DNA of 64,000 nucleotides. Origin: Oceanimonas doudoroffii. GTDB taxonomy: Bacteria; Pseudomonadota; Gammaproteobacteria; Enterobacterales; Aeromonadaceae. The translations under genes and the position numbers were made by a program. This document shows, one piece after another, positions 21,851 through 51,900 of the stretch. The notes beneath the pieces are model-generated. The model worked only from the letters and a program-made list of their open reading frames with translations. It made no database searches and was not told where the DNA came from. Location of the stretch: contig NZ_NBIM01000001.1 of assembly GCF_002242685.1 (NCBI RefSeq), positions 434,001 to 498,000 of the forward strand, read 5' to 3'. Positions within the stretch are counted from its first letter, which is position 1. Each line of letters starts with the position of its first letter.

Positions 21851-22687
21851 ATGATAAAACTCGAATTACACCGCAGGTATTGGTTAATTGAGCTAATAAA
21901 CTATTGGGAAGGCCGGCTGACTACCGGTCATTTACGGCAATTTTTTGGCATCAGCCGGCAGCAAGCCAGCAAAGACATTAATCAATATCAGCAGGAGCAT
22001 GCCGGCAACCTGATCTATTGCAGCACCCGAAAGGGCTATCTGCCCACCGAACATTTCAACCCTGCCCACATTTCTGGCGACGTGGCCGAATATCTCAACT
22101 GGATGACCGGTCAGAGCGCCCACGCCATGCCTGTTGACCCAGGTTATCGGCTGGACCATGCTATTCTGCGGCCACCGGCCAGAAGCGTGTCTGCTCAGAT
22201 AATCAGGCCAATAGTACATGCTCTGCGCCACCATGAGCGGCTGGAAGTGGACTATGGCGCGGTGAGCAGCACTGACCGCGACGGCCGCATCATTGTGCCG
22301 GTGCGCTTTGTAAACACCGGCAGCCGCTGGCACCTGCGCGCCTGGTGCGAAAAAGCACAAAACTACCGCGATTTTGTGCTCAGCCGCTTTCACGGCACGC
22401 CAATACAGGAAGGCAAATTGCTGGCGCCGCTGCCGCCCGACACTCGCTGGAACACGCATATCACCCTCAGCATCACCCCCGACCCCCGCTTAAGCCCCGA
22501 ACAACAGCAGGCCCTGATACGGGACTACGCCATGGAAAACGGGCAGCTTCGGCTGCATATCCGTGTTGCCCTGGCCGGCTATTTGCTCAAAGAAATGCAG
22601 ATAAACACCAAAATGCTCGATGGTAACCCTGCAGCCCAGCAGCTGATCCTGGCCAACCAGGATGAGGTAAAGGAGTGGTTGTTCTAG
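21851..22687 (+). CDS. WYL-domain transcriptional regulator beside the cas genes
   Basis: A 278-residue regulator. The N-terminal winged HTH reads LTTGHLRQFFGISRQQASKD; a WYL domain follows (LEVDYGAVSSTDRDGRIIVP, then SRWHLRAWCEKAQNYRDFVL, where WHL replaces WYL), then a C-terminal dimer/WCX-like part. The architecture matches the BrxR/CapW group of repressors found next to phage-defence loci. It has its own promoter and lies 96 bases before cas3 on the same strand. Control of cas3 or of the whole locus is an inference from position. WYL domains usually sense nucleic acid or small-molecule ligands. Confidence 0.8.
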   Translation: MIKLELHRRYWLIELINYWEGRLTTGHLRQFFGISRQQASKDINQYQQEHAGNLIYCSTRKGYLPTEHFNPAHISGDVAEYLNWMTGQSAHAMPVDPGYRLDHAILRPPARSVSAQIIRPIVHALRHHERLEVDYGAVSSTDRDGRIIVPVRFVNTGSRWHLRAWCEKAQNYRDFVLSRFHGTPIQEGKLLAPLPPDTRWNTHITLSITPDPRLSPEQQQALIRDYAMENGQLRLHIRVALAGYLLKEMQINTKMLDGNPAAQQLILANQDEVKEWLF

Positions 22688-22783: not shown

Positions 22784-25504
22784 ATGAATGCCAGTTATTT
22801 TCTGTATTGGGGTAAGGCCAGTAAGGATGAAAAAGAGTCCAGAGCAGACTATCACTTGTTGCCTTATCACTGCCTAGACGTGGCAGCGGTGGGCTGGTGG
22901 TTGCTGGATGAACACAATCCCTTGAGCAGAAGTCTGGCTGCATTCCTCAATATTTACCCTGCGCAGCTGAGGTTACTGTTTACCTTTTTTCTCATGCTGC
23001 ACGATCTTGGCAAGTTTGCATCGGCATTTCAGAATCTGGCAGAATTTCCAGATTCTCCGCTGATTAACTATCGACCAAGGTTTAGCTATGACAGCCGTCA
23101 GGCCCGCCACGACAGACTGGGTTACTTTTTTTGGTTACAGGCCAGAAGAAGCAGGTATTTGTCAGGGGCTGAGCTTGGGCTTAAACAGACGGATCTTGCT
23201 CAAGTCAGTCCGGCTTTAGATAGTCTGGATGCCATGTTCGATGTGGTGTTTGGCCATCATGGCTATCCCATTAATCGGAGCACCCAACCGGGGGCGATGA
23301 AAGACTACTGTCATAAGTCAGATATCAGTGCTGCCTGTGATTTTATTCGAGATTGTGCGGCACTTTTACAAGTTGAGTGGCCGGAGCAGAAAATGGCCGA
23401 CAAAGAGTGGCTGGCACGCTTTCGGCAGGTGAGCTGGCACTTATCCGGCTTGGCTATTTTAAGTGACTGGATTGGCTCCGACACAACTTATTTCGAGTAT
23501 AGAACCGGTGGCTACACGCTCGATGAATATTGGCCGCTGGCGAAGAACAAGGCCCGGAAAGCACTCTCGGCAACAGAGCTGAACCAGCCCGTTAGTGTAC
23601 AGCCGTTTACCTCCATCCAGTCACACTTTGGCTTTGAACCAACCCCCTTACAGGCATGGGCGGAGTCAGTGCCTTTGGCTACTGGCCCCCAGTTGTTCAT
23701 TCTTGAAGACGTGACTGGCGCTGGAAAAACAGAGGCGGCACTGGCGCTGACCCACCGGTTGTTACAGCAAGGTGAAGCCGATGGTTTTTATTTTGGCTTG
23801 CCCACTATGGCGACTTCCAATGCTATGTTCTCCCGCGTGGCGGATCACTATCTGCAGATGTTATCGGTTCAAGGCAGCCGCCCCAGCATAGTGCTGGCCC
23901 ACGGTGCCAGAGAAATGAACGAACAATTTCAGGAGGCCTTGCTCCCTGCTGATAAAGCCGGAACTCCTTATGCACAAGGCGACGATACCGCCAGTCTGTA
24001 TTGCAATCAGTGGTTGGCAGATTCCCGTAAGAAAGCGCTGCTGTCAGCGGTGGGTGTAGGCACCATCGATCAGGCATTAATGGCGGTGTTGCCACGCAAG
24101 CACCAGCCGCTACGACTGCTTGGCCTGCACCGGAAAGTGCTGATTTTTGATGAGGTGCATGCGGCCGATGCCTTCATGTTTGAATTGCTGGATGACTTGT
24201 TACAGGTCCATTTGCGCCAGGGTGGCAGCGTTATTTTGCTGACTGCGACGTTGGCACAGCAACAACGGGAACGATTGTGCTGGATCTGGCAACAGGCTGG
24301 AGGGATTGCTCCTTTGCAGTTGCCGGAAAAAGATGATTTTCCCCTGGCGACACACATTAGCTTTGAGCAAGGTCTTAAAGAAACACCGGTTGCCAGCAGG
24401 AAGTCGGTTAGCCGGGAGCTGAATGTTGCGTTTGTGCATAGCGAACAAGCCTGTGTCGAAAAAATCCTGAATGCTCACAAAAATGACCAGTGTGTGGTGT
24501 GGATCCGCAACTCGGTGGACGATGCCATCCGTGCCTATCAAATGCTCGCTGAGCAACTTGGGTCTGATAAAACGCTGACACTGTTTCACAGCCGCTTTGC
24601 CTTGAAAGATCGTAAGGCAATAGAAAACAAGGTGCTGGCTATCTTCGGCAAGCAGGGGGGCAAGGATGACCGGCAGGGTCAAATTCTGATTGCTACACAG
24701 GTTTTCCAGGAAAGCCTCGATGCAGATGCCGACCTGATGATCTCTGATCTCTGCCCCATTGACGATCTTATTCAGCGTGCTGGCCGGCTTCATCGTCACA
24801 TTCGGGACAAATGGGGTAACCGTTCAGATAGGACGCAGGATGAGCGCTCGTCTCCATTTTTGCTGGTTCATGCTCCCGAGTGGCAGGAGCAACCGAATGC
24901 TGACTGGCTGCTCAATCATTTGCCTAATACCGAGCATGTTTATCGCTCTCCCGGCAGGCTGTGGCTGGGCATGCAGATATTGCTCAAGCAGGGAGCAATC
25001 CGCATGCCGGGTGAGGCAAGGAAATTAATAGAAGCGGTTTATGACAAAACTGCGTTTGATCGCATGCCACCAGCGCTGCAGCAGAAGGAAGATCTGTATT
25101 TTGGTGAAGTCCGTGGTCAGGCCGCTCGGGCCAAGAGTCAGTTAATTGAGTGGGGCAAGGGCTACAACCAGAGCAGTGCCCAGGCCTGGCACGACGACAA
25201 CATTGAGATCAGCACGCGTTTTTCGGACAGAGAAACCGTTCAGGTGCTGGTATTCAGGCTCGATTCTCATGGCCGGCTTCAGTTGTGGGCAGAAAGTGAG
25301 CCTTATGCCTTGCAGAACAGTGTGGTGAAGCTTGCCAAGCATCGCTTCGCCGACAAACTGGCGGCCTTGCCCGGCGAGTTTTCCGCAGACTTTGAGAAGC
25401 TTACACAGCGCTATCCCCAGGCAAAATTTCTGCAGCCCTGGTTGCCTGATAGCGATCAAGGCTTTGGATACTGTGCTCAGCTGGGAGTGGTAGAGAAGGA
25501 GTAA
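22784..25504 (+). CDS. cas3: Type I-E helicase-nuclease Cas3
   Basis: About 906 residues, counted from the ATG at 22784, which has AAGGA 7 bases upstream; the frame extends to 22700 but without a ribosome site. The N-terminal HD nuclease has His29, then HDLGKF (His73-Asp74) and a later GHHGYP. The helicase has Walker A TGAGKT near residues 311-316, DEVH at 456-459, then TATL and a C-terminal QRAGRLHRH motif VI. Cas3 is recruited by Cascade bound to a target and degrades the DNA. The stop codon lies inside a degenerate CRISPR repeat on the other strand. Confidence 0.96.
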   Translation: MNASYFLYWGKASKDEKESRADYHLLPYHCLDVAAVGWWLLDEHNPLSRSLAAFLNIYPAQLRLLFTFFLMLHDLGKFASAFQNLAEFPDSPLINYRPRFSYDSRQARHDRLGYFFWLQARRSRYLSGAELGLKQTDLAQVSPALDSLDAMFDVVFGHHGYPINRSTQPGAMKDYCHKSDISAACDFIRDCAALLQVEWPEQKMADKEWLARFRQVSWHLSGLAILSDWIGSDTTYFEYRTGGYTLDEYWPLAKNKARKALSATELNQPVSVQPFTSIQSHFGFEPTPLQAWAESVPLATGPQLFILEDVTGAGKTEAALALTHRLLQQGEADGFYFGLPTMATSNAMFSRVADHYLQMLSVQGSRPSIVLAHGAREMNEQFQEALLPADKAGTPYAQGDDTASLYCNQWLADSRKKALLSAVGVGTIDQALMAVLPRKHQPLRLLGLHRKVLIFDEVHAADAFMFELLDDLLQVHLRQGGSVILLTATLAQQQRERLCWIWQQAGGIAPLQLPEKDDFPLATHISFEQGLKETPVASRKSVSRELNVAFVHSEQACVEKILNAHKNDQCVVWIRNSVDDAIRAYQMLAEQLGSDKTLTLFHSRFALKDRKAIENKVLAIFGKQGGKDDRQGQILIATQVFQESLDADADLMISDLCPIDDLIQRAGRLHRHIRDKWGNRSDRTQDERSSPFLLVHAPEWQEQPNADWLLNHLPNTEHVYRSPGRLWLGMQILLKQGAIRMPGEARKLIEAVYDKTAFDRMPPALQQKEDLYFGEVRGQAARAKSQLIEWGKGYNQSSAQAWHDDNIEISTRFSDRETVQVLVFRLDSHGRLQLWAESEPYALQNSVVKLAKHRFADKLAALPGEFSADFEKLTQRYPQAKFLQPWLPDSDQGFGYCAQLGVVEKE

Positions 25505-25527
25505 ATCCCCGCCGAAGCGGGGAACGT
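25499..25527 (-). repeat. Degenerate CRISPR repeat, 3' of the pseudo-spacer, overlapping the cas3 stop
   Basis: Matches 20 of 29 positions of the array repeat. The stem is identical to the array stem (TCCCCGC/GCGGGGA), the loop on the minus strand is TTCG instead of AGGC, and the handle side, which here faces no spacer, has decayed. The cas3 TAA (25502-25504) lies within it. Confidence 0.8.
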
Positions 25528-25559
25528 TATTGCTAAACAAAGCTAGCCCCATTTCAAAC

Positions 25560-25588
25560 GGGTTTATCTCCGACATCTCGGAGAACAA
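25560..25588 (-). repeat. Degenerate CRISPR repeat, 5' of the pseudo-spacer
   Basis: Matches 18 of 29 positions of the array repeat in register. The stem differs from the array consensus at three pairs: outer C-G is replaced by T-A with both bases changed, and the innermost pair is also replaced (A-T for C-G), so all seven pairs remain. The handle side (plus strand GGGTTTAT at 25560-25567) is kept except for one base. Confidence 0.8.
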
Positions 25589-25662
25589 CGAGAGACTACG
25601 TGAAGTGATACGTGATATCTAGAGAGTTATTGTGGACGCAAAGGTGTCTAGATGTCTGGATG

Positions 25663-25697
25663 TCTGAGATTTTATATTTAGCACCATTACAAACCTT
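25663..25697 (-). promoter_or_regulatory. Cascade target site (pseudo-protospacer plus AAG PAM) at the cse1 promoter
   Basis: Read on the minus strand, AAG (25697-25695) is followed by GTTTGTAATGGTGCTA (25694-25679). Against the pseudo-spacer start GTTTGAAATGGGGCTA, positions 1-5, 7-11 and 13-16 match and only 6 and 12 differ; beyond 16 the match is lost. In type I-E Cascade every sixth guide base is flipped out and unpaired, so the seed would be fully paired. A short match with a good PAM fits binding without DNA destruction. Confidence 0.75.
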
Positions 25698-25715
25698 TCT
25701 TACTTGTTCTATGCT
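25687..25715 (+). promoter_or_regulatory. Candidate cse1 operon promoter
   Basis: TTACAA (25687-25692), 17 bases, TATGCT (25710-25715), three and four of six consensus matches. The -35 lies inside the pseudo-protospacer, so Cascade bound there would hide it. It would start RNA near 25722, about 80 bases before the cse1 ATG, with a small hairpin (CCCTT/AAGGG near 25737-25749) in the leader. Confidence 0.45.
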
Positions 25716-25804
25716 GTGTTTGTGCTCTACTGAATCCCTTGCAAAAGGGGAAGTATCTCGGAAAGCTAAAGGTTTTTTGTACTTTTATTTTGGGGAGTTA
25801 AAGG

Positions 25805-27397
25805 ATGAATCTGCTTACCTCTCATTGGCTTAGCTACCGGTTCAGGGATGGCAGTGAGCAGCAGTTACCGCTGACCGCCATTGCCAATCCGGATGTGGTG
25901 GACTTTGCACTGCCAAGGGCCGACTTCCATGGTGCCGCTTACCAGTTTGCCATTGGCTTGTTGCAGACGGTGATGGCCCCACAGGACAAATATGACTGGC
26001 ACGAACGCTATCTGACTCCGCCCGATGAGTCTGCGCTGGCAGCGGCGTTCACCAAGGTGGAGCATGCTTTTGAGCTGGACGGAGACGGTCCGCACTTTAT
26101 GCAGGATCTGGATCCGCTGGATGCCGCCAGTCCTGTTCCGGTTTCCGGCCTGTTGATAGAAGCACCGGGGGGTAACACGCTAAAGCTGAATACCGATCAT
26201 TTTATTAAACGTGGCATTGCGGAAACATTGTCACCGGAAATGGCGGCACTGGCGCTGTTTACCCTACAAATCAATGCGCCAGCGGGTGGCCAGGGACACA
26301 GAACCGGCCTGCGAGGAGGCGGTCCGCTGACCACCCTGGTGCTGCCCCATGAAGAAGACGCCAGCTTGTGGCAAAAGCTATGGCTGAATGTACAGAGCCG
26401 GGAGTCCTGGACGTATAAAGACCCCGATTATCACAGTGCAGAGCTGTTCCCTTGGCTGGGGAAAACCCGCATCAGCAAAAACAAGGGCAGTGACATCTAT
26501 GCACACGATGTGCATCCGCTTGCTATGTTCTGGGCCATGCCGCGGCGGATCCGGCTGCTGTTCGAACAGCAGGAAGGCATTTGCCAATTGAGTCTTAAAG
26601 CGTGCTCCACTGTTTGCCGGCAATACCGTACCAGCAATTACGGTAATAACTATGTGGGCACCTGGCTACATCCGCTGACCCATTACCGCTCCAACCCCAA
26701 AAAGCCGGATGAAGATTATTTATCCACCAAAGGGCAACCCGGCGGAATTCAGTATAAGCAGTGGCACAGCCTCAGCTTTGTGGATGCTGCGGAAGGCAGT
26801 CATCCAGCCCAAGTGATACAGGACTTTCTTCTTCACAAGTCTGAATATTTTTATTTTGACTGGGGGGAAGCCCCCAGATTGTGGGCCTTTGGATTCGATA
26901 TGGACAATATGAAGGCCAGAGGCTGGTACAACAGTGAATTTCCGCTGATCCGGTTAAATCCTGATCTCAGGGACGAGTTGCTTAACGAAATCAAATCCAT
27001 GCAAAGTCTGGCGCAAGAGGTGCTGTGGCACTGTCGGACCCAGATCAAGGCAGCCTGGTTTGATAAACCGGCCGATGCCAAGGGCGATACCAGCCATATC
27101 GACTTACAGTTTTGGCAGCGCACACAGAATGATTTTTTCCAGATGGTGGCAGCGCTGCTGAATGCACCGGATGGCCGGTTAACACCGGAAGCTGCCGCGC
27201 GCTGGCTGTGGGCATTGTCCCGTCATGCCAAAACACTGTTTGACGATTTGGCACTGTCCAATCTGTATCCCGACCGGGAAATGTATAAAAAAATCCGCGC
27301 TCGCCGTCAGCTTACAGGTTGGTTGGCAGGCAGCAAACGTATTCGGCAATTCAGTCAGGATTACCGACTCGATACCTTAACCGAGGAGCTGGCGTGA
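25805..27397 (+). CDS. cse1: Cascade large subunit Cse1 (Cas8e)
   Basis: A 530-residue large subunit of type I-E Cascade, which reads the PAM and recruits Cas3. The start MNLLTSHWLSYRFRDG and the block ALPRADFHGAAYQFAIGLLQ are typical of Cse1/CasA. The mid-region LRGGGPLTTLVLP and the C-terminal four-helix bundle (about residues 380-510) follow. GGGGAG lies before the ATG. It opens the cse1-cse2-cas7-cas5-cas6e-cas1-cas2 operon. The 300-bp gap upstream holds the antisense repeat-derived RNA and the promoter described separately. Confidence 0.94.
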   Translation: MNLLTSHWLSYRFRDGSEQQLPLTAIANPDVVDFALPRADFHGAAYQFAIGLLQTVMAPQDKYDWHERYLTPPDESALAAAFTKVEHAFELDGDGPHFMQDLDPLDAASPVPVSGLLIEAPGGNTLKLNTDHFIKRGIAETLSPEMAALALFTLQINAPAGGQGHRTGLRGGGPLTTLVLPHEEDASLWQKLWLNVQSRESWTYKDPDYHSAELFPWLGKTRISKNKGSDIYAHDVHPLAMFWAMPRRIRLLFEQQEGICQLSLKACSTVCRQYRTSNYGNNYVGTWLHPLTHYRSNPKKPDEDYLSTKGQPGGIQYKQWHSLSFVDAAEGSHPAQVIQDFLLHKSEYFYFDWGEAPRLWAFGFDMDNMKARGWYNSEFPLIRLNPDLRDELLNEIKSMQSLAQEVLWHCRTQIKAAWFDKPADAKGDTSHIDLQFWQRTQNDFFQMVAALLNAPDGRLTPEAAARWLWALSRHAKTLFDDLALSNLYPDREMYKKIRARRQLTGWLAGSKRIRQFSQDYRLDTLTEELA

Positions 27398-30651: not shown

Positions 30652-31865
<1,214 letters not shown>

Positions 31866-31949: not shown

Positions 31950-34900
31950 CCGTTCCCCGCAGGCGCGGGGATAAACCGCCGGTCAGCCCTCCAGTCTGCT
32001 GGGGCACGGCCCGTTCCCCGCAGGCGCGGGGATAAACCGGCCAAAGCCATCTCCGACATTGCCGGATCCAGCCGTTCCCCGCAGGCGCGGGGATAAACCG
32101 GTGAACCGCTGGTATATTGGGTGTCCTGATAACCGTTCCCCGCAGGCGCGGGGATAAACCGGAAGGGGTGAGCGACCTTATGTTGCCAGTTAGCCGTTCC
32201 CCGCAGGCGCGGGGATAAACCGGCTGAAGTCAAAGAAGCCCCGCCTGCCAATAGCCGTTCCCCGCAGGCGCGGGGATAAACCGGGGCTGAGCCTGACAGG
32301 TATTTAATCAAAGCTCCGTTCCCCGCAGGCGCGGGGATAAACCGTTATTGGCTACCGCTTCCCTCATCCTGGCGTCCCGTTCCCCGCAGGCGCGGGGATA
32401 AACCGTGGAAGGCCTCGGGCCAGAAGTTAGACCAAGACCGTTCCCCGCAGGCGCGGGGATAAACCGGCGGTGCGCATCCAGAAAGACGGGCGCCAGGTCC
32501 GTTCCCCGCAGGCGCGGGGATAAACCGTTTGCTGATTCTGTCAGGTGGGATTCCATTACCCGTTCCCCGCAGGCGCGGGGATAAACCGAAACCCTCCCGT
32601 GTAGGACGAACCAATACCCACCGTTCCCCGCAGGCGCGGGGATAAACCGACGAGATTGCGAATTACAACCAGCCCTCAGCACCGTTCCCCGCAGGCGCGG
32701 GGATAAACCGGCCGTGCGCTTTGGCGACGGCTACGAGCAACGCCGTTCCCCGCAGGCGCGGGGATAAACCGGTCTTCAACTCAAAAAATACGCGCAGAGT
32801 TAACCGTTCCCCGCAGGCGCGGGGATAAACCGGCCCGGGGCCAGATATCCAGGGTGACGGTGTGCCGTTCCCCGCAGGCGCGGGGATAAACCGGTGGTGG
32901 GTTTACCGGTGATGCTGGCCCAGGTCCGTTCCCCGCAGGCGCGGGGATAAACCGCAATCTCACTCATTTCAAAACACGCGATAAGTCCGTTCCCCGCAGG
33001 CGCGGGGATAAACCGGCGGTTACCTGATGGTGCTGGGGGGTAATCAGCCGTTCCCCGCAGGCGCGGGGATAAACCGCATCTTGCTTGGCGTACTGCCGGT
33101 GGTGACGTCCGTTCCCCGCAGGCGCGGGGATAAACCGCAACTGAATGTGATGTGTGTCACATTTTTTTCCCGTTCCCCGCAGGCGCGGGGATAAACCGTC
33201 CGAAATTTGACGAGGATTCATTTCCCAAAACCGTTCCCCGCAGGCGCGGGGATAAACCGGGGTGGCGGTACATTAGGGAGCGAAACCGGATCCGTTCCCC
33301 GCAGGCGCGGGGATAAACCGAGAGGGTGTGCGACGGTGTACACTCGGATTTTCCGTTCCCCGCAGGCGCGGGGATAAACCGGATTACGATTATGTCACTT
33401 TCAATTCTGCGTACCGTTCCCCGCAGGCGCGGGGATAAACCGTAAACGGCGTCATTCCATAATCCCCTCAAGCCCCGTTCCCCGCAGGCGCGGGGATAAA
33501 CCGAAAACAACGAAGCCATGCTGGAAATCAACGGCCCGTTCCCCGCAGGCGCGGGGATAAACCGCGCAGCGACCTGATCGCCGGCCTGTTTGTGGACCGT
33601 TCCCCGCAGGCGCGGGGATAAACCGGCAATGCCCAGCGCGCGGGCCTTGTCATTGGGCCGTTCCCCGCAGGCGCGGGGATAAACCGTACACCAGCGGTGG
33701 CCTCGGGGCGCTGGCCCACCGTTCCCCGCAGGCGCGGGGATAAACCGACGTCAACATCACCGGCAAGACCACCAGCATTCCGTTCCCCGCAGGCGCGGGG
33801 ATAAACCGGCCAGGCCCACGACGGCATTGACTTTGTACCCCCGTTCCCCGCAGGCGCGGGGATAAACCGTATGGATTAGATGGATCAGGCCAGAATTAAA
33901 CCCGTTCCCCGCAGGCGCGGGGATAAACCGACCTTCGAAAAAATCCTTATTTAATTGAGCGTCCGTTCCCCGCAGGCGCGGGGATAAACCGCGCGAACAG
34001 GAAGAGCGGGAGCGTCGCATTGCCCGTTCCCCGCAGGCGCGGGGATAAACCGCCTCCACCCTGCCTGCAACCCCATTTCCAGCCCCGTTCCCCGCAGGCG
34101 CGGGGATAAACCGGCGCGGCGGTAATGCTCGGCGGCCTGTTCTAGCCGTTCCCCGCAGGCGCGGGGATAAACCGCGATAAATCCCCATCCCCTCGGGCTC
34201 CCATTCCCCGTTCCCCGCAGGCGCGGGGATAAACCGGCGTATGAATCACGCATGACTGACCATGCCTTCCGTTCCCCGCAGGCGCGGGGATAAACCGTCG
34301 GCATAACCCTGGCCGGCGTCGTCGCCGCCACCGTTCCCCGCAGGCGCGGGGATAAACCGTTACTGCCGGTGTCGCCACCGCTGGTGCTCTGCCGTTCCCC
34401 GCAGGCGCGGGGATAAACCGTTAACCGAACAGGCTAAAAACACGCTAAATAGCCGTTCCCCGCAGGCGCGGGGATAAACCGACGTCCCGGAAAAGGTGGT
34501 GGGACTGGCGAAGCCGTTCCCCGCAGGCGCGGGGATAAACCGCGCGATATAAAGAGAGGGTGTGCGACGGTGTACCGTTCCCCGCAGGCGCGGGGATAAA
34601 CCGCGTTCGATGCAATGGCGCGGGACCGTTCGGGGCCGTTCCCCGCAGGCGCGGGGATAAACCGTTGCTGCACAGATTCCTCAGTGGCGTGGCGCCCCCG
34701 TTCCCCGCAGGCGCGGGGATAAACCGCGTCGGCGACATGGAAGCCAAGGGGATATTGACCGTTCCCCGCAGGCGCGGGGATAAACCGATTAAGGAATTCC
34801 CTGGCACCATAGATCCGGTCCGTTCCCCGCAGGCGCGGGGATAAACCGGTGATCGGCTGCAGGCAATCAATGGGGAGCTGCCGTTCCCCGCAGGCGCGGG

Positions 34901-37900
34901 GATAAACCGAATTCCATGCTTGTTATAGTAAGGAGGCGACACCGTTCCCCGCAGGCGCGGGGATAAACCGCGCGCCCGTGAACGGGCCGCCGCCGAGGGC
35001 ACCCGTTCCCCGCAGGCGCGGGGATAAACCGCTTTTTGTCAATATTGATAAAGTCGGTTTGTACCGTTCCCCGCAGGCGCGGGGATAAACCGAAAACCGA
35101 CTCTCTCAGCCACACTCGCATATTCCGTTCCCCGCAGGCGCGGGGATAAACCGGGGTCGTCGCGGAACAGAGCACGATATTGAAACCGTTCCCCGCAGGC
35201 GCGGGGATAAACCGAAACAGGCGGTCAATTATGAGCGCAACCCAAACCGTTCCCCGCAGGCGCGGGGATAAACCGGCGAACAGCGGATCCGCGGAGCAGG
35301 TGCGGGACCGTTCCCCGCAGGCGCGGGGATAAACCGGCCGATTTCTGGCGGCACTGGCAGGAGTGCTTCCGTTCCCCGCAGGCGCGGGGATAAACCGTCG
35401 ATATCTTCCCATGCAAGGGCGGTCACCTCCCGTTCCCCGCAGGCGCGGGGATAAACCGTTTACCCTGGTGGAAGTGCCGGCCGAGCAGGTCCGTTCCCCG
35501 CAGGCGCGGGGATAAACCGCACGAAAACCCCCAAGAAGTTTTGGACCGACACCGTTCCCCGCAGGCGCGGGGATAAACCGTCCTGGTAATACCCCTTGGC
35601 GGTGGCGGCAAACCGTTCCCCGCAGGCGCGGGGATAAACCGCCATGCTTTACACGCTCTTGCTCGGAGCGTAGCCGTTCCCCGCAGGCGCGGGGATAAAC
35701 CGGGGTGGAGCAGCCAAGTTTTACGAGACCAGAGGCCGTTCCCCGCAGGCGCGGGGATAAACCGCTGCAGTTCCTGCCCGAGTATCAGGGCTATGTCCGT
35801 TCCCCGCAGGCGCGGGGATAAACCGTCGGGCCAGATCACCATGACTTCGCGGTCGCCCCGTTCCCCGCAGGCGCGGGGATAAACCGGCTGTAGTTGCGAC
35901 CAAAGCTAGCCTGAAAGACCGTTCCCCGCAGGCGCGGGGATAAACCGGTGGCATTCGTGGTGGAGTCTATGGTGCTTTACCGTTCCCCGCAGGCGCGGGG
36001 ATAAACCGTAAGCGGGACACCTCAGCCACTTTGGCTGCTTCCGTTCCCCGCAGGCGCGGGGATAAACCGGCTTGCTAAGGAATTAGCCAAACGGGGGAAA
36101 GCCGTTCCCCGCAGGCGCGGGGATAAACCGGTTAATAGCTCCATTTCCTGAACCTGTGGAAACCGTTCCCCGCAGGCGCGGGGATAAACCGCCTTTTCAA
36201 GTGCCCGATCTTTTGCCTAACTCCCGTTCCCCGCAGGCGCGGGGATAAACCGATTGCCGTGGATATGGTGGGTCGAGTGTTCAACCGTTCCCCGCAGGCG
36301 CGGGGATAAACCGTTCGGCGGTCTGGCTCTGTCGCCTGACTTGCACCGTTCCCCGCAGGCGCGGGGATAAACCGTCGGTGCAGTCGTCCCGTTCGGCCAT
36401 GATCTCCCGTTCCCCGCAGGCGCGGGGATAAACCGGTTATTGAAGAAGTGCAGCCCCGCGACTTTAACCGTTCCCCGCAGGCGCGGGGATAAACCGTAGA
36501 CCGGGTGCGGGTAACCATTGGAGTGCCTCCGTTCCCCGCAGGCGCGGGGATAAACCGGGTGTCGAGAATGCTGCCGCCGGCCTGTGCCGCCGTTCCCCGC
36601 AGGCGCGGGGATAAACCGCTAAAAACACGCTAAATAGATTCAACGTTCATCCGTTCCCCGCAGGCGCGGGGATAAACCGGCACTTCACTCGATACGACAA
36701 TACCGTTAACACCGTTCCCCGCAGGCGCGGGGATAAACCGCCACTATCAGACCGGCCAGTATCAGACCGGCGCCGTTCCCCGCAGGCGCGGGGATAAACC
36801 GCGAGACACGGTTACTTGTCATTCAGTCGGTAACCGTTCCCCGCAGGCGCGGGGATAAACCGTTCCCGCCGTATCTGGCCGTGGTCGTAAGTCCCCGTTC
36901 CCCGCAGGCGCGGGGATAAAGATTCTGATGCGGAGGCCATTAGCGAGTCACAGCCCCGTTCCCCGCAGGCGCGGGGATAAACCGCGGCATACGGTCGTGG
37001 TACTGAGCGCATACCTCCGTTCCCCGCAGGCGCGGGGATAAACCGTTTTTGAGCAACACTAGCTGCCGATTCATTAACCGTTCCCCGCAGGCGCGGGGAT
37101 AAACCGGTTGAATTTGAGGTGATCGCATAATGGCTAACCCGTTCCCCGCAGGCGCGGGGATAAACCGCCGGCGATCTGGTTTCCACCAGCCAGCTGGGCC
37201 CGTTCCCCGCAGGCGCGGGGATAAACCGATTGTTGGGCCGACATGCTGCGGGTCAACGAGCCGTTCCCCGCAGGCGCGGGGATAAACCGGCCGAATTCGC
37301 CCAGGGTGTACTGATCCGGGCCCGTTCCCCGCAGGCGCGGGGATAAACCGCATAACCAGGGCGGATCGGATCGCGGTCGTACCCGTTCCCCGCAGGCGCG
37401 GGGATAAACCGTTTTCATTGGTCGATCCTCGTTTAATTAACATCCGTTCCCCGCAGGCGGGGGGATAAACCGTTCAGGGGATTGTGATGGACCGAATAGA
37501 TGGGCCGTTCCCCGCAGGCGCGGGGATAAACCTCATTATGGCAAATGTCGGACATATCACAAAACCCGTTCCCCGCAGGCGCGGGGATAAACCGCGAGCA
37601 ACAGCTATAACCACATGACCCTGCGGCCGTTCCCCGCAGGCGCGGGGATAAACCGGAGCTGGGTCGTTCGCTCGGGTCAACCAGGGCCCGTTCCCCGCAG
37701 GCGCGGGGATAAACCGCTCACCCTTATCGAAGTCGATATCTTCCCATGCCCGTTCCCCGCAGGCGCGGGGATAAACCGTTGACCTATCCCAATAGTGCCG
37801 TGGTGGGGCTCCGTTCCCCGCAGGCGCGGGGATAAACCGTGCTGGAAAAACCTGATGTTGTAATGGTTGGTCCGTTCCCCGCAGGCGCGGGGATAAACCG

Positions 37901-38313
37901 AATCATTGGCCACGTTATCGGCAATGATGCCGCCGTTCCCCGCAGGCGCGGGGATAAACCGGGGATCAGCCCACCCGTCAGGTTGCTGGCATGACCGTTC
38001 CTCGCAGGCGCGGGGATAAACCGTGCCTGTTTGACGCATAGCACCCCTGGCCATGCCGTTCCCCGCAGGCGCGGGGATAAACCGAGGCCATGGTTGACGT
38101 GCTGAACTACGTGGCACCGTTCCCCGCAGGCGCGGGGATAAACCGAACGCTTCATCAATGGAATACACCTCCACCGCCCGTTCCCCGCAGGCGCGGGGAT
38201 AAACCGCTGGGGTAATCCATGACCATTATCGACGACATCCGTTCCCCGCAGACGCGGGGATAAACCGCCGTCTATGTTCTTGGCGATGTATTTGGCGATC
38301 CGTTCCCCGCAGG
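31950..38313 (+). CRISPR. Type I-E CRISPR array, 104 full repeats and a truncated terminal repeat
   Basis: A 29-bp repeat (31950-31978 is the first copy) recurs with a 61-bp period. Its stem is TCCCCGC/GCGGGGA with loop AGGC and its 3' end ATAAACCG is the E. coli-type crRNA handle, so the array is transcribed on the plus strand from the leader. By tracking every repeat start I count 104 full repeats, 104 spacers (98 of 32 and 6 of 33 nt) and a last copy cut to 14 bases (38300-38313). Variant repeats lie mainly far from the leader: starts 36895 (ATAAAGAT end), 37444, 37505, 37995 and 38239. Long open frames across this stretch are repeat artefacts, not genes. Confidence 0.99.
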
Positions 38314-48996: not shown

Positions 48997-51900
48997 TGCG
49001 AATGAAACGGCTGCTGTTGGCCATCCTGATCGGCCTGTGCCTGTTGCTCATGGTGCTGGCCACCCTGCTGCTGACCCACACCGGCAACCAGTGGCTGTGG
49101 GGCCTGGCCAAGCGGCAGGTGCCGGGGCTGGAAGGCAACCTGGTGTCGGGGCAGTTGCTGAGTGGCTGGACCTTTTCGGAGCTGGTCTACGAGCAGGACT
49201 CGCTCGCCTTTCGCGCCAACTCGGTCAGCCTGGACTGGCAGCTGGGCAAGCTGGTGGATGGTCGCTTCTGGTTGCGCCGGCTGGACGCCGCCGACATTGA
49301 TGTGGAGATTCGCACCCTGCCCGAGGAGCAGGCACCAAAGGAAGAAAGCGAACCGCTCACCAGCCTGAGTCCGCCGTTACTGATTGATCTGGACGACATT
49401 CGTGCCGATCGGGTCAGCATCACCCTGCCCGGTCAGCGCATTGCCTGGCAACGCCTGCAGGTGGCCGCCCACTGGAATGACGACGGCATGGTGATCACCG
49501 GTCCGCAAATGAGTGGCCTGGTGATTGAACTGGAGCCGACCGAGGCCCCGGTTGTGGCGCCTGAGCCCGCGACTGAACCGCAGGCCATTACCCTTCCCGA
49601 CATCGTGCTGCCGTTCCCCCTCAAGCTGGAGCAACTGGAGCTGACCGACAGCAAGCTGGTGCAAAGCGGCCAGTCTCAGGATCTGCATCGCCTGGCGGTG
49701 GCGCTGGCAGGCGAGGGCAGCCGAGTGCGCATTGACCGGCTGGAGCTGGCCCATGAACTGGCCGACGCCCATCTGAGCGGTGAGGTAACTCTGACCGGTG
49801 ACTATCCGCTCAGTGCCGAGCTGGGTGCCACCCTGCATGAAGGCCTGATGGAGGGGCAGCTCAAGGGCCAGCAGCTGGCCCTTGAGCTGAATAACAGCCT
49901 GGCCAGCCTGGCCGCCGAGCTGCGGCTCAAGGGCCCGGTCACGGCCCGGGCGGACATCAAGACGCAACCGCTCCTTCCCGAGTTACCCCTTGAGGTGGCG
50001 CTCAGCTGGAAAAAGCTGGGCTGGCCGCTGCGGGAGCCCCAGTGGACCCTGACCCAGGGTAAACTCAACCTCACCGGCGCGCTGCGTGACTATCGTCTGA
50101 CCCTCAATACCGAGGCCGGCGGACCCGAGTTGCCGCCGGTGGGCATTGAGCTGGCGGCCAGCGGCAATCTGGAACAGGCCCGCATCGAGCCCCTGACCCT
50201 GGTGTTGCCTCAGGGCGAAACTCAACTCACCGGTGATATCGGCTGGGCCGACGGCGTGCGCTGGCAGGGCGAGTTGACCCTGAACGAAGTGGATCCCGGT
50301 GCCTTTGCCGAAGGCTTTGAGGGCCGCCTCAATGGCCGTATCGACAGCCGCTTTACCCTGAACGGTAACCAGTGGCGGCTGGAGGCCGGCCCCGAGGTCA
50401 AGGGTGTGCTGCGCAACCATCCGTTGTCGCTGACCGGCCAAATACGACTTGACCAGGATCTGGCCGGGCAGGTGGAGGATCTGGTGCTGACCAACGGCAA
50501 CAATCGCTTGGCGGTGTCGGGGCGCATTGATGATCGCTGGGATCTCAATGGCCGGCTGACGGCACCGGATCTGGCGGTCTACGCCCCCGGCCTGTATGGG
50601 GACATTGCCGGCAACTTTGATGTGAGCGGGCCGCGGGCGGCCCCGGCGGTGCGGGCCAGCCTGGCCGGCGAGCGCGCCGGCTTCAACGACACTCAGGCCC
50701 GTGGCCTGAAGCTGAACACCAGGCTGACCCTGGGCGAGGCCCCCGCCGGCGAGCTGAGCCTGACCGTGGTCCGGCTGAATGCCGGCGGGCTGCGCTTTGA
50801 CGATCTGGCGCTCAACGCCGACGGCGACAAGGATGCCCACCGCCTGACCCTGACCGCCGATGGCGATCCCCTGGCGCTGGATCTGGCGCTGACCGGCGCC
50901 ATGGGCAAGGACGGCTGGCGCGGCCGGCTGCAGCGGGGTGAGCTGAATACGCCGCTGGAAGCCTGGCAATTGCAGGAGCCGGTAGCCCTGGCCTGGCGTC
51001 AGCCCGAGGGCGTGTTTACCGCCGCCGCCCATTGCTGGCGTTCCAACGGCGCCGCCGTGTGCCTGGATGAGATCAGCGCCAGTGGCGAACGTGGCCGGGC
51101 CGGGCTCGATATTCGCGACTTCAACCTGGCCCGGCTCAAGCCGTTTCTGCCGGAAGACTTTGCCTGGGAGGCGGTGCTGGACGGCCGCCTGGATGCCAGC
51201 TGGAAACAGGGCGAGGCCCCCAGGGTCAATGCCCGCATCGGCACCACGCCGGGCACCTTTGTCAGCGGCGACACTCGGCTGGGCTATGACCGGCTGCGGT
51301 TGCAGAGCGAGGTGGTCAATAATCGCCTGGTGGCGGAGCTGGAATTCGACTCTCAGCCCCTGGGCCGGCTGCGGCTGGATACCCGGGTGAGCGATCTGGC
51401 CGGCCGGCGGGCCCTGGGCGGCGAGCTGTCCATCGTTGGTCTGCGCCTCGACTGGCTGGCACCGCTGCTGCCCGAGGTCGCCCGGCTGCAGGGCACCCTG
51501 GCCGGACAGGCCCGCCTGGACGGCACCCTGGCCAAGCCGCTGATGTATGGCGACATTACCCTGAGCGGTGGTGAGGTGGACACCAGCGCCGACATGGTGA
51601 AGGTGCGGGATCTCACCACCCGGCTGGCGGTGCAGGGTAACCGCGCCACCATAGATGGCAGCCTGCGGGTGGGTGACGGCCCGCTCAATATCAGCGGCGA
51701 GCTGGACTGGAGCCAGCTGCCGGTAAGCGGCGAAGTCAGGCTCAAGGGCAGCGAGCTGGAAGCCAGTTACCCCGGCCTCGGTCGGGTCAGGGTCAACCCG
51801 GGTCTGCAGATTTCCCTGGGCGAGCAGGCGCGGGTGCGGGGGGAGATTCTGATCCCCTGGGCACGCATTGAGGTGCAGGAGCTGCCCGAAAGCGCGGTGA

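Follow-up and report, generated by a model that had tools for sequence, protein, structure and literature searches.

Does the 300-nt gap that separates cas3 (stop codon at 25502-25504) from cse1 (start at 25805) in Oceanimonas doudoroffii encode a small RNA through which Cascade regulates its own synthesis? An initial annotation of the locus, made from the letters alone, had proposed such a loop, in which a crRNA-like RNA directs Cascade to the cse1 promoter with mismatches only at positions 6 and 12 of the guide. We re-examined that proposal within the window, by which we mean the whole 64,000-nt stretch of DNA analysed, and among relatives carrying cse1. Our main conclusion, which from the sequence we consider highly probable, is that a mini-CRISPR in this gap encodes a predicted CreR, through which Cascade would repress the Cascade-cas1-cas2 operon without cutting by Cas3.

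The cas3-cse1 gap and its mini-CRISPR

The window carries a complete type I-E set (cas3, cse1, cse2, cas7, cas5e, cas6e, cas1e and cas2e), with every gene call above the cut-off for one or more NCBIfam models. Past cse1 the genes run in the order cse2, cas7, cas5e, cas6e, cas1e, cas2e and end at 31865; the main CRISPR array beyond them (Table 1) contains 105 repeat copies when identities of at least 70% are admitted. By cse1, the nearest named loci are those of O. marisflavi (95%), O. baumannii (94%) and an Oceanisphaera isolate (93%). The type strain, O. doudoroffii ATCC 27123T, came from seawater according to the accessible text of its report (PMC5589545). Just before cas3 and in the same direction lies a gene for a WYL-domain protein (21851-22687), a possible regulator.

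Table 1. Features in and around the cas3-cse1 gap of the window, in order of position
Feature	Position	Strand	Remarks
cas3	22784..25504	+	HD and helicase domains; upstream of target; start codon picked manually
Second mini-CRISPR repeat	25498..25527	-	hairpin CCCCGC-TTCG-GCGGGG (25507-25522) and degenerate handle
Mini-CRISPR spacer (32 nt)	25528..25559	-	guide of the predicted CreR RNA; first 16 bases at 25544-25559
First mini-CRISPR repeat	25560..25588	-	degenerate; hairpin CTCCGA-GATG-TCGGAG and 8-nt handle ATAAACCC
TCTAGATAT box	25615..25623	-	candidate part of mini-CRISPR promoter (prediction); kept in the window, L002 and L015
Target (protospacer seed) GTTTGTAATGGTGCTA	25679..25694	-	read directly and found by scan; upstream of cse1
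Candidate cse1 promoter B	25687..25715	+	prediction, score 5.7; TTACAA (25687-25692), 17 nt, TATGCT (25710-25715); proposed in the initial annotation
Target PAM AAG	25695..25697	-	CTT on plus strand; read directly and found by scan
Candidate cse1 promoter A	25704..25731	+	prediction, score 4.7; TTGTTC (25704-25709), 16 nt, TCTACT (25726-25731), preceded by TG
cse1	25805..27397	+	first gene past target
Main CRISPR array	31950..38205	+	100 exact copies of 28-nt repeat core, mostly 61-nt period

On its minus strand, the gap holds a mini-CRISPR of two repeats, both of which retain the hairpin geometry of the array repeat, and the degenerate end of the second overlaps the cas3 stop codon in antisense. 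Its guide, read from the first base at 25559 down the minus strand, is GTTTGAAATGGGGCTAGCTTTGTTTAGCAATA. The folding energy of the 99-nt unit is -38.2 kcal/mol, where its shuffles average -26.1 (z -3.4), and the TCTAGATAT box stands upstream of it. A search of the window for the same pattern outside the array returned this mini-CRISPR and one further candidate on the plus strand at 49581, with a hairpin, an CTGAACCG handle and TTCCCC downstream, which may be a chance occurrence. Rfam models at gathering scores recovered one tRNA and nothing else. We also observed a terminator-like hairpin on the plus strand at 25642-25665, directly before the target (1 found, 0.3 expected from shuffles).

Guide and target

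The spacer starts with GTTTGAAATGGGGCTA and faces AAG-GTTTGTAATGGTGCTA, 111 nt upstream of cse1. Fourteen of the first 16 guide bases pair with this target, and the mismatches fall at positions 6 and 12 only, so that the pair described in the initial annotation is confirmed both by direct reading and by our scan. The accompanying claim that pairing stops after the start of the guide also held: matches in the window are scattered past base 16, and over positions 18-32, pooled across the 32 guide families described below, 124 of 480 bases match, which is about chance. AAG together with the ten seed positions (1-5 and 7-11) would be expected 1.4e-5 times per 300-bp gap of the same composition, both strands counted, and 5e-8 times when positions 13-16 are added. 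Within the whole assembly of 3,832,938 bases, AAGGTTTGNAATGG (AAG and the ten seed bases) has a single copy, and its reversed control has none.

Guide families among relatives

Loci with cse1 were given L numbers; 63 came from a genome collection and the others from searching whole genomes with the Cse1 family. Seventeen were excluded before the scan, three as belonging to the same genome (L001, L070 and L078) and 14 for a short region or partial gene match; L108, L129 and L170 were dropped as duplicates, and L140 was kept despite a failed reading-frame check. The final scan covered 169 regions upstream of cse1, the window included. It sought a hairpin with a handle-like octamer, a second hairpin at repeat distance, and then the best target bearing a PAM of AAG, ATG, AGG or GAG no more than 1.5 kb upstream of cse1. 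A candidate unit was present in 65 regions, and 48 of these had a target matching at least 12 of 16 guide bases. The other 17 stayed outside the per-position counts, among them L045, L060, L138 and L168, which fall below the threshold although their seeds are in fair agreement with the pattern. Sixteen of the 48 accepted pairs were set aside as belonging to a family already represented (no more than 4 differences in 12), leaving 32 guide families, which are not fully independent in that several share one genus. When guides were matched to the regions of other families, 12 or more of 16 bases agreed in 1.0% of pairings and 13 in 0.2%; the first figure is somewhat too low per region, because the best candidate unit was kept for each.

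The families adhere closely to a single pattern. The PAM is AAG in 31 and ATG in one, and 307 of 320 seed cells are matched: 32, 31, 32, 32 and 30 of 32 families at positions 1-5, and 32, 31, 27, 29 and 31 at positions 7-11. Positions 6 and 12 match in 7 and 9 families, about the chance value of 8, and both are mismatched in 17. Positions 13-17 match in 30, 29, 24, 22 and 17 families, so that pairing fades after about 17. The 13 mismatched seed cells are spread over 11 families, one or two in each, mostly at 9 and 10. Because all 16 positions are weighted alike, the threshold of 12 cannot by itself single out 6 and 12; that these two lie at chance while the other seed positions are held is what the structure of Cascade predicts, since every sixth base is flipped out of the pairing. 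An apparent avoidance of matches at position 6 in an early set (2 of 25) disappeared in the larger one (7 of 32). Stem pairs numbered 153 of 192, against 129.7 when the arms were dealt anew, a count that is partly circular because detection itself demanded a stem.

The same counts bear on the reading in which the unit is a non-functional leftover of a decayed array whose spacer was derived by accident from the host. Degeneracy of both repeats would suit such a leftover, and a spacer acquired from the host's own gap would match it too. However, decay should strike all positions equally, whereas 6 and 12 vary freely in 32 families that conserve the ten seed positions, positions 18-32 are at chance while the seed is held, and the hairpins are retained. 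We therefore regard a decayed leftover as very unlikely, and favor a maintained CreR guide.

Presence of the pair follows the gap: it was found in 47 of 97 regions whose gap is at least 100 nt (or undefined) versus 1 of 72 with smaller gaps, and in the remaining 50 gapped regions the scan gave no accepted pair. At four loci of close relatives (L004, L005, L006 and L072) cas3 abuts cse1 directly and no mini-CRISPR was accepted upstream of cse1. The mini-CRISPR thus appears dispensable, because the gapless close relatives (L004-L006) run the operon without one. At L044, outside the accepted set, two tandem target-like copies (AAG-TCTGTTAATTCAA) can be seen by eye before a mini-CRISPR with a related guide.

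Covariation of guide and target

The initial annotation had proposed that in relatives positions 6 and 12 should vary freely while the rest of guide and target co-vary. The conservation of ten seed positions across 32 families, with 6 and 12 at chance, agrees with this expectation, and several related loci change guide and target in concert. Between the window and Zobellella iuensis (L015) both are changed at position 10; concordant changes occur at 1, 3 and 9 between L131/L136 and L143, and at 1, 3 and 7 between L130 and L133. L131 and L143 may not share one site, because their targets lie 424 and 176 nt from cse1, respectively. The free positions behave in the complementary manner: the first 16 guide bases of the window and O. 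marisflavi (L002) are identical and their targets differ at 6 only, and the targets of L147 and L149 differ from that of L150 at 12 only, with the guide differing at 16. There are counter-cases. The targets of L003 and L009 are unlike at 9 despite guides that are identical over the first 16 bases, the mismatches of L015 are at 14 and 16 rather than at 6 and 12, and L133 has one at 11. One further comparison, L026 with L031, was dropped as a case of covariation: agreement at 7, 8 and 14 is offset by a discrepancy at 10, and the two targets are on opposite strands.

Candidate cse1 promoters

Because a consensus promoter scan of 25450-25900 found none, our statements on the promoter rest on a weight matrix and on comparison of loci. 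The matrix suggests two candidates (Table 1). Candidate A puts the PAM some 7 nt upstream of the -35 box, and under candidate B the seed covers that box. A TGTG-box held in register in five of seven aligned loci (the window, L015, L003, L009 and L069) favors A, judging from the alignment; the space of only 56 nt between target and cse1 in L002 leaves little room for A and would suit B. The earlier statement that the site overlaps the -35 of cse1 is accordingly true for candidate B, which is itself only one of two weak predictions.

Promoter-like sequence nevertheless appears to accompany the target across loci. In the 26 families whose target is on the strand opposite cse1, the best promoter-like pair of boxes whose -35 starts 0-14 nt past the start of the PAM complement scores 7.33 on average, versus means of 1.6-3.7 in eight other 15-nt bins around the site. 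A peak of -35 consensus at the PAM itself was discounted, the PAM complement CTT supplying two of the six -35 bases. Because CTT feeds the -35 consensus in this way, other CTT sites served as the control: 234 of them in the same regions gave a mean of 2.44, and at 15 of the 26 loci fewer than 10% of these controls score as high as the target site. By eye, the highest-scoring -35 boxes close to the site tend to begin either 0-4 or 9-14 nt past the PAM complement, offsets that are perhaps one helical turn apart.

Position relative to the promoter also bears on whether Cascade at this site might activate the cse1 promoter, or serve a divergent promoter of the mini-CRISPR, instead of repressing. 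The site does lie between two divergent predicted promoters, and with candidate A the protospacer would be upstream of the -35, where activators bind too; with candidate B, on the other hand, the seed covers the -35, and the published CreR is a repressor, as far as the available review text describes it. We find activation the least credible of the alternatives weighed here. For repression by a CreR, the reading we prefer, bound Cascade would plausibly hinder polymerase with either candidate.

Comparison with CreR, CreA and CrePA

CreRs are described, in the portions of three papers accessible to us (PMC13131331, PMC12948488, PMC12737573), as autorepressing types I-B, I-E and V-A through partial complementarity to a promoter, and as responding to crRNA load and to anti-CRISPRs. 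The locus resembles them in its predicted crRNA-like RNA from a mini-CRISPR, its partial complementarity to a putative cas promoter, the predicted autorepression of Cascade and the absence of a toxin gene, there being no open reading frame of at least 28 codons between target and cse1 in the window. The mini-CRISPR with its degenerate repeats adjoins the cas genes, relatives keep guide and target together, and the guide matches its target site, whose status as a promoter is predicted. Among the features compared, with CreR represented by the available parts of reviews, we noted no difference. The locus is a further case of the already published CreR-type circuit.

The resemblance to CreA is also close. 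Mutation of a type I-B CreA showed that positions 1-5 and 7-11 are needed and 6 and 12 are not (PMC8501985), and the first of its repeats is the more diverged (PMC9458426), as stated in the accessible text of each. The window shares two degenerate repeats, the first more diverged, and a seed of 1-5 and 7-11 to which 6 and 12 are neutral; its PAM is AAG, that of haloarchaeal type I-B CreA TTC. It differs, on the same partial sources, in its target: CreA silences a toxin RNA, whereas the target here precedes cse1 and pairing extends over 13-16. An addiction pair of the CreTA type, with a toxin RNA or peptide driven by the targeted promoter and the guide RNA as antitoxin, would account for the degenerate repeats and the pairing through a seed, both as in CreA, and several relatives have small open reading frames between target and cse1. 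In the window, however, just 111 nt separate target and cse1, which is the next gene, and no open reading frame of at least 28 codons starts and ends between them, leaving no toxin gene or RNA discernible at that length under the targeted promoter. The odds of such a pair are slim, and we rank it below the decayed leftover.

With CrePA, as presented in the available part of PMC12737573, the proposed CreR would have in common a repression guided by Cascade that anti-CRISPRs would lift. In CrePA the targeted promoter drives a protein toxin, typically with KilA-N, and in this the window differs, having no KilA-N or other toxin gene in its gap. A literature search, to which subscription journals contributed little, yielded no paper that deals with this locus or with small membrane reading frames under a CreR promoter.

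Proposed control loop

We infer the production of the RNA, its use by Cascade for binding and the resulting repression. In the loop that we propose, a crRNA-like RNA would be made from the minus strand and its hairpins cut by Cas6e; Cascade would load the RNA and bind the AAG site through the seed, and in this position, over the -35 or immediately before it, would block RNA polymerase. Pairing that ends after about 16 bases would be too short to license Cas3. When Cascade is scarce, occupied by crRNAs of the array, lacking a subunit or blocked by an anti-CRISPR, the site would be freed and the operon made again; release by anti-CRISPRs at this locus is suggested by analogy with the published systems.

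These steps are consistent with what the accessible text of a study of E. coli Cascade (PMC5904413) reports: AAG and a short seed match are enough for binding, every sixth base is flipped out, interference and priming demand extensive pairing, and Cascade placed at promoters is known to repress. Because a seed suffices for binding and interference needs extensive pairing, the complex should repress without calling Cas3. The same text notes that off-target sites bound through the seed only, few of them at promoters, had no measurable effect on nearby transcription. Autorepression of Cascade as first proposed thus gains support from the seed pattern, the covariation and, by analogy, the likeness to CreR. 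Because cas3 lies before the target site, it would be outside this repression.

If the loop works as predicted, this Oceanimonas host would sense a shortage or blockade of Cascade by RNA-guided derepression. Moreover, natural guide-target pairs reveal the targeting rule of the CRISPR system itself (a PAM, a seed, sixth bases left unpaired and a longer stretch of pairing for Cas3), and therefore provide a purely genomic test for CreR-like function. The 48 collected pairs are material on the origin and turnover of such guides.

Small reading frames and spacer classes

The small membrane-like reading frames at several loci suggest an additional output of the circuit, possibly newer than the CreR circuit itself. 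In 7 of the 32 families (L022, L024, L025, L033, L075, L109 and L175) an open reading frame with a strongly hydrophobic stretch lies between target and cse1, when frames of 25-75 codons are considered; shuffles gave 1.0 (sd 0.9) and the reverse strand 0. These seven are 36-67 codons long, and in five of them (L022, L024, L025, L033 and L109) the ATG stands 47-61 nt past the PAM, as would be expected of the first gene of an operon. The window has no small membrane-like frame between target and cse1. Pfam returned nothing for nine small peptides, five of them products of the membrane-like frames, and protein searches with two small peptides found one near-identical sequence for the first and none for the second.

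These frames permit a broader reading, which we put forward as a possibility on the doubtful side. CreR control may be the usual arrangement in type I-E operons with a real cse1 promoter, with guides refitted often, and in about one fifth of families the same Cascade-silenced promoter may drive a tiny single-helix membrane peptide, encoded first, before cse1, a fusion of CreR and CreTA. If this were true, fresh Cas proteins and a guard peptide acting on the membrane would be released together once Cascade is lost.

A different small frame, basic and with a common IFRRF...KAWPI motif, lies between target and cse1 at L009, L065 and L011; it has no match in Pfam, and its hosts are Oceanimonas baumannii and Bowmanella dokdonensis.

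Counted from the guide start, the second hairpin begins at 24-27 bases in 15 families and at 36-37 in another 15, with 2 unclear, in a final scan that admitted only certain spacings; a scan with unrestricted spacing found offsets of 22-24 and 34-35, a single case at 28, and two weak matches at 43 and 44. Mini-CRISPR spacers thus seem to fall into two classes, one of full length, to which the window belongs, and one about 12 nt shorter. A spacer shorter by about 12 would fit two fewer Cas7 units. According to the accessible text of PMC10989794, a type I-B spacer cut to 24 gives repression without interference.
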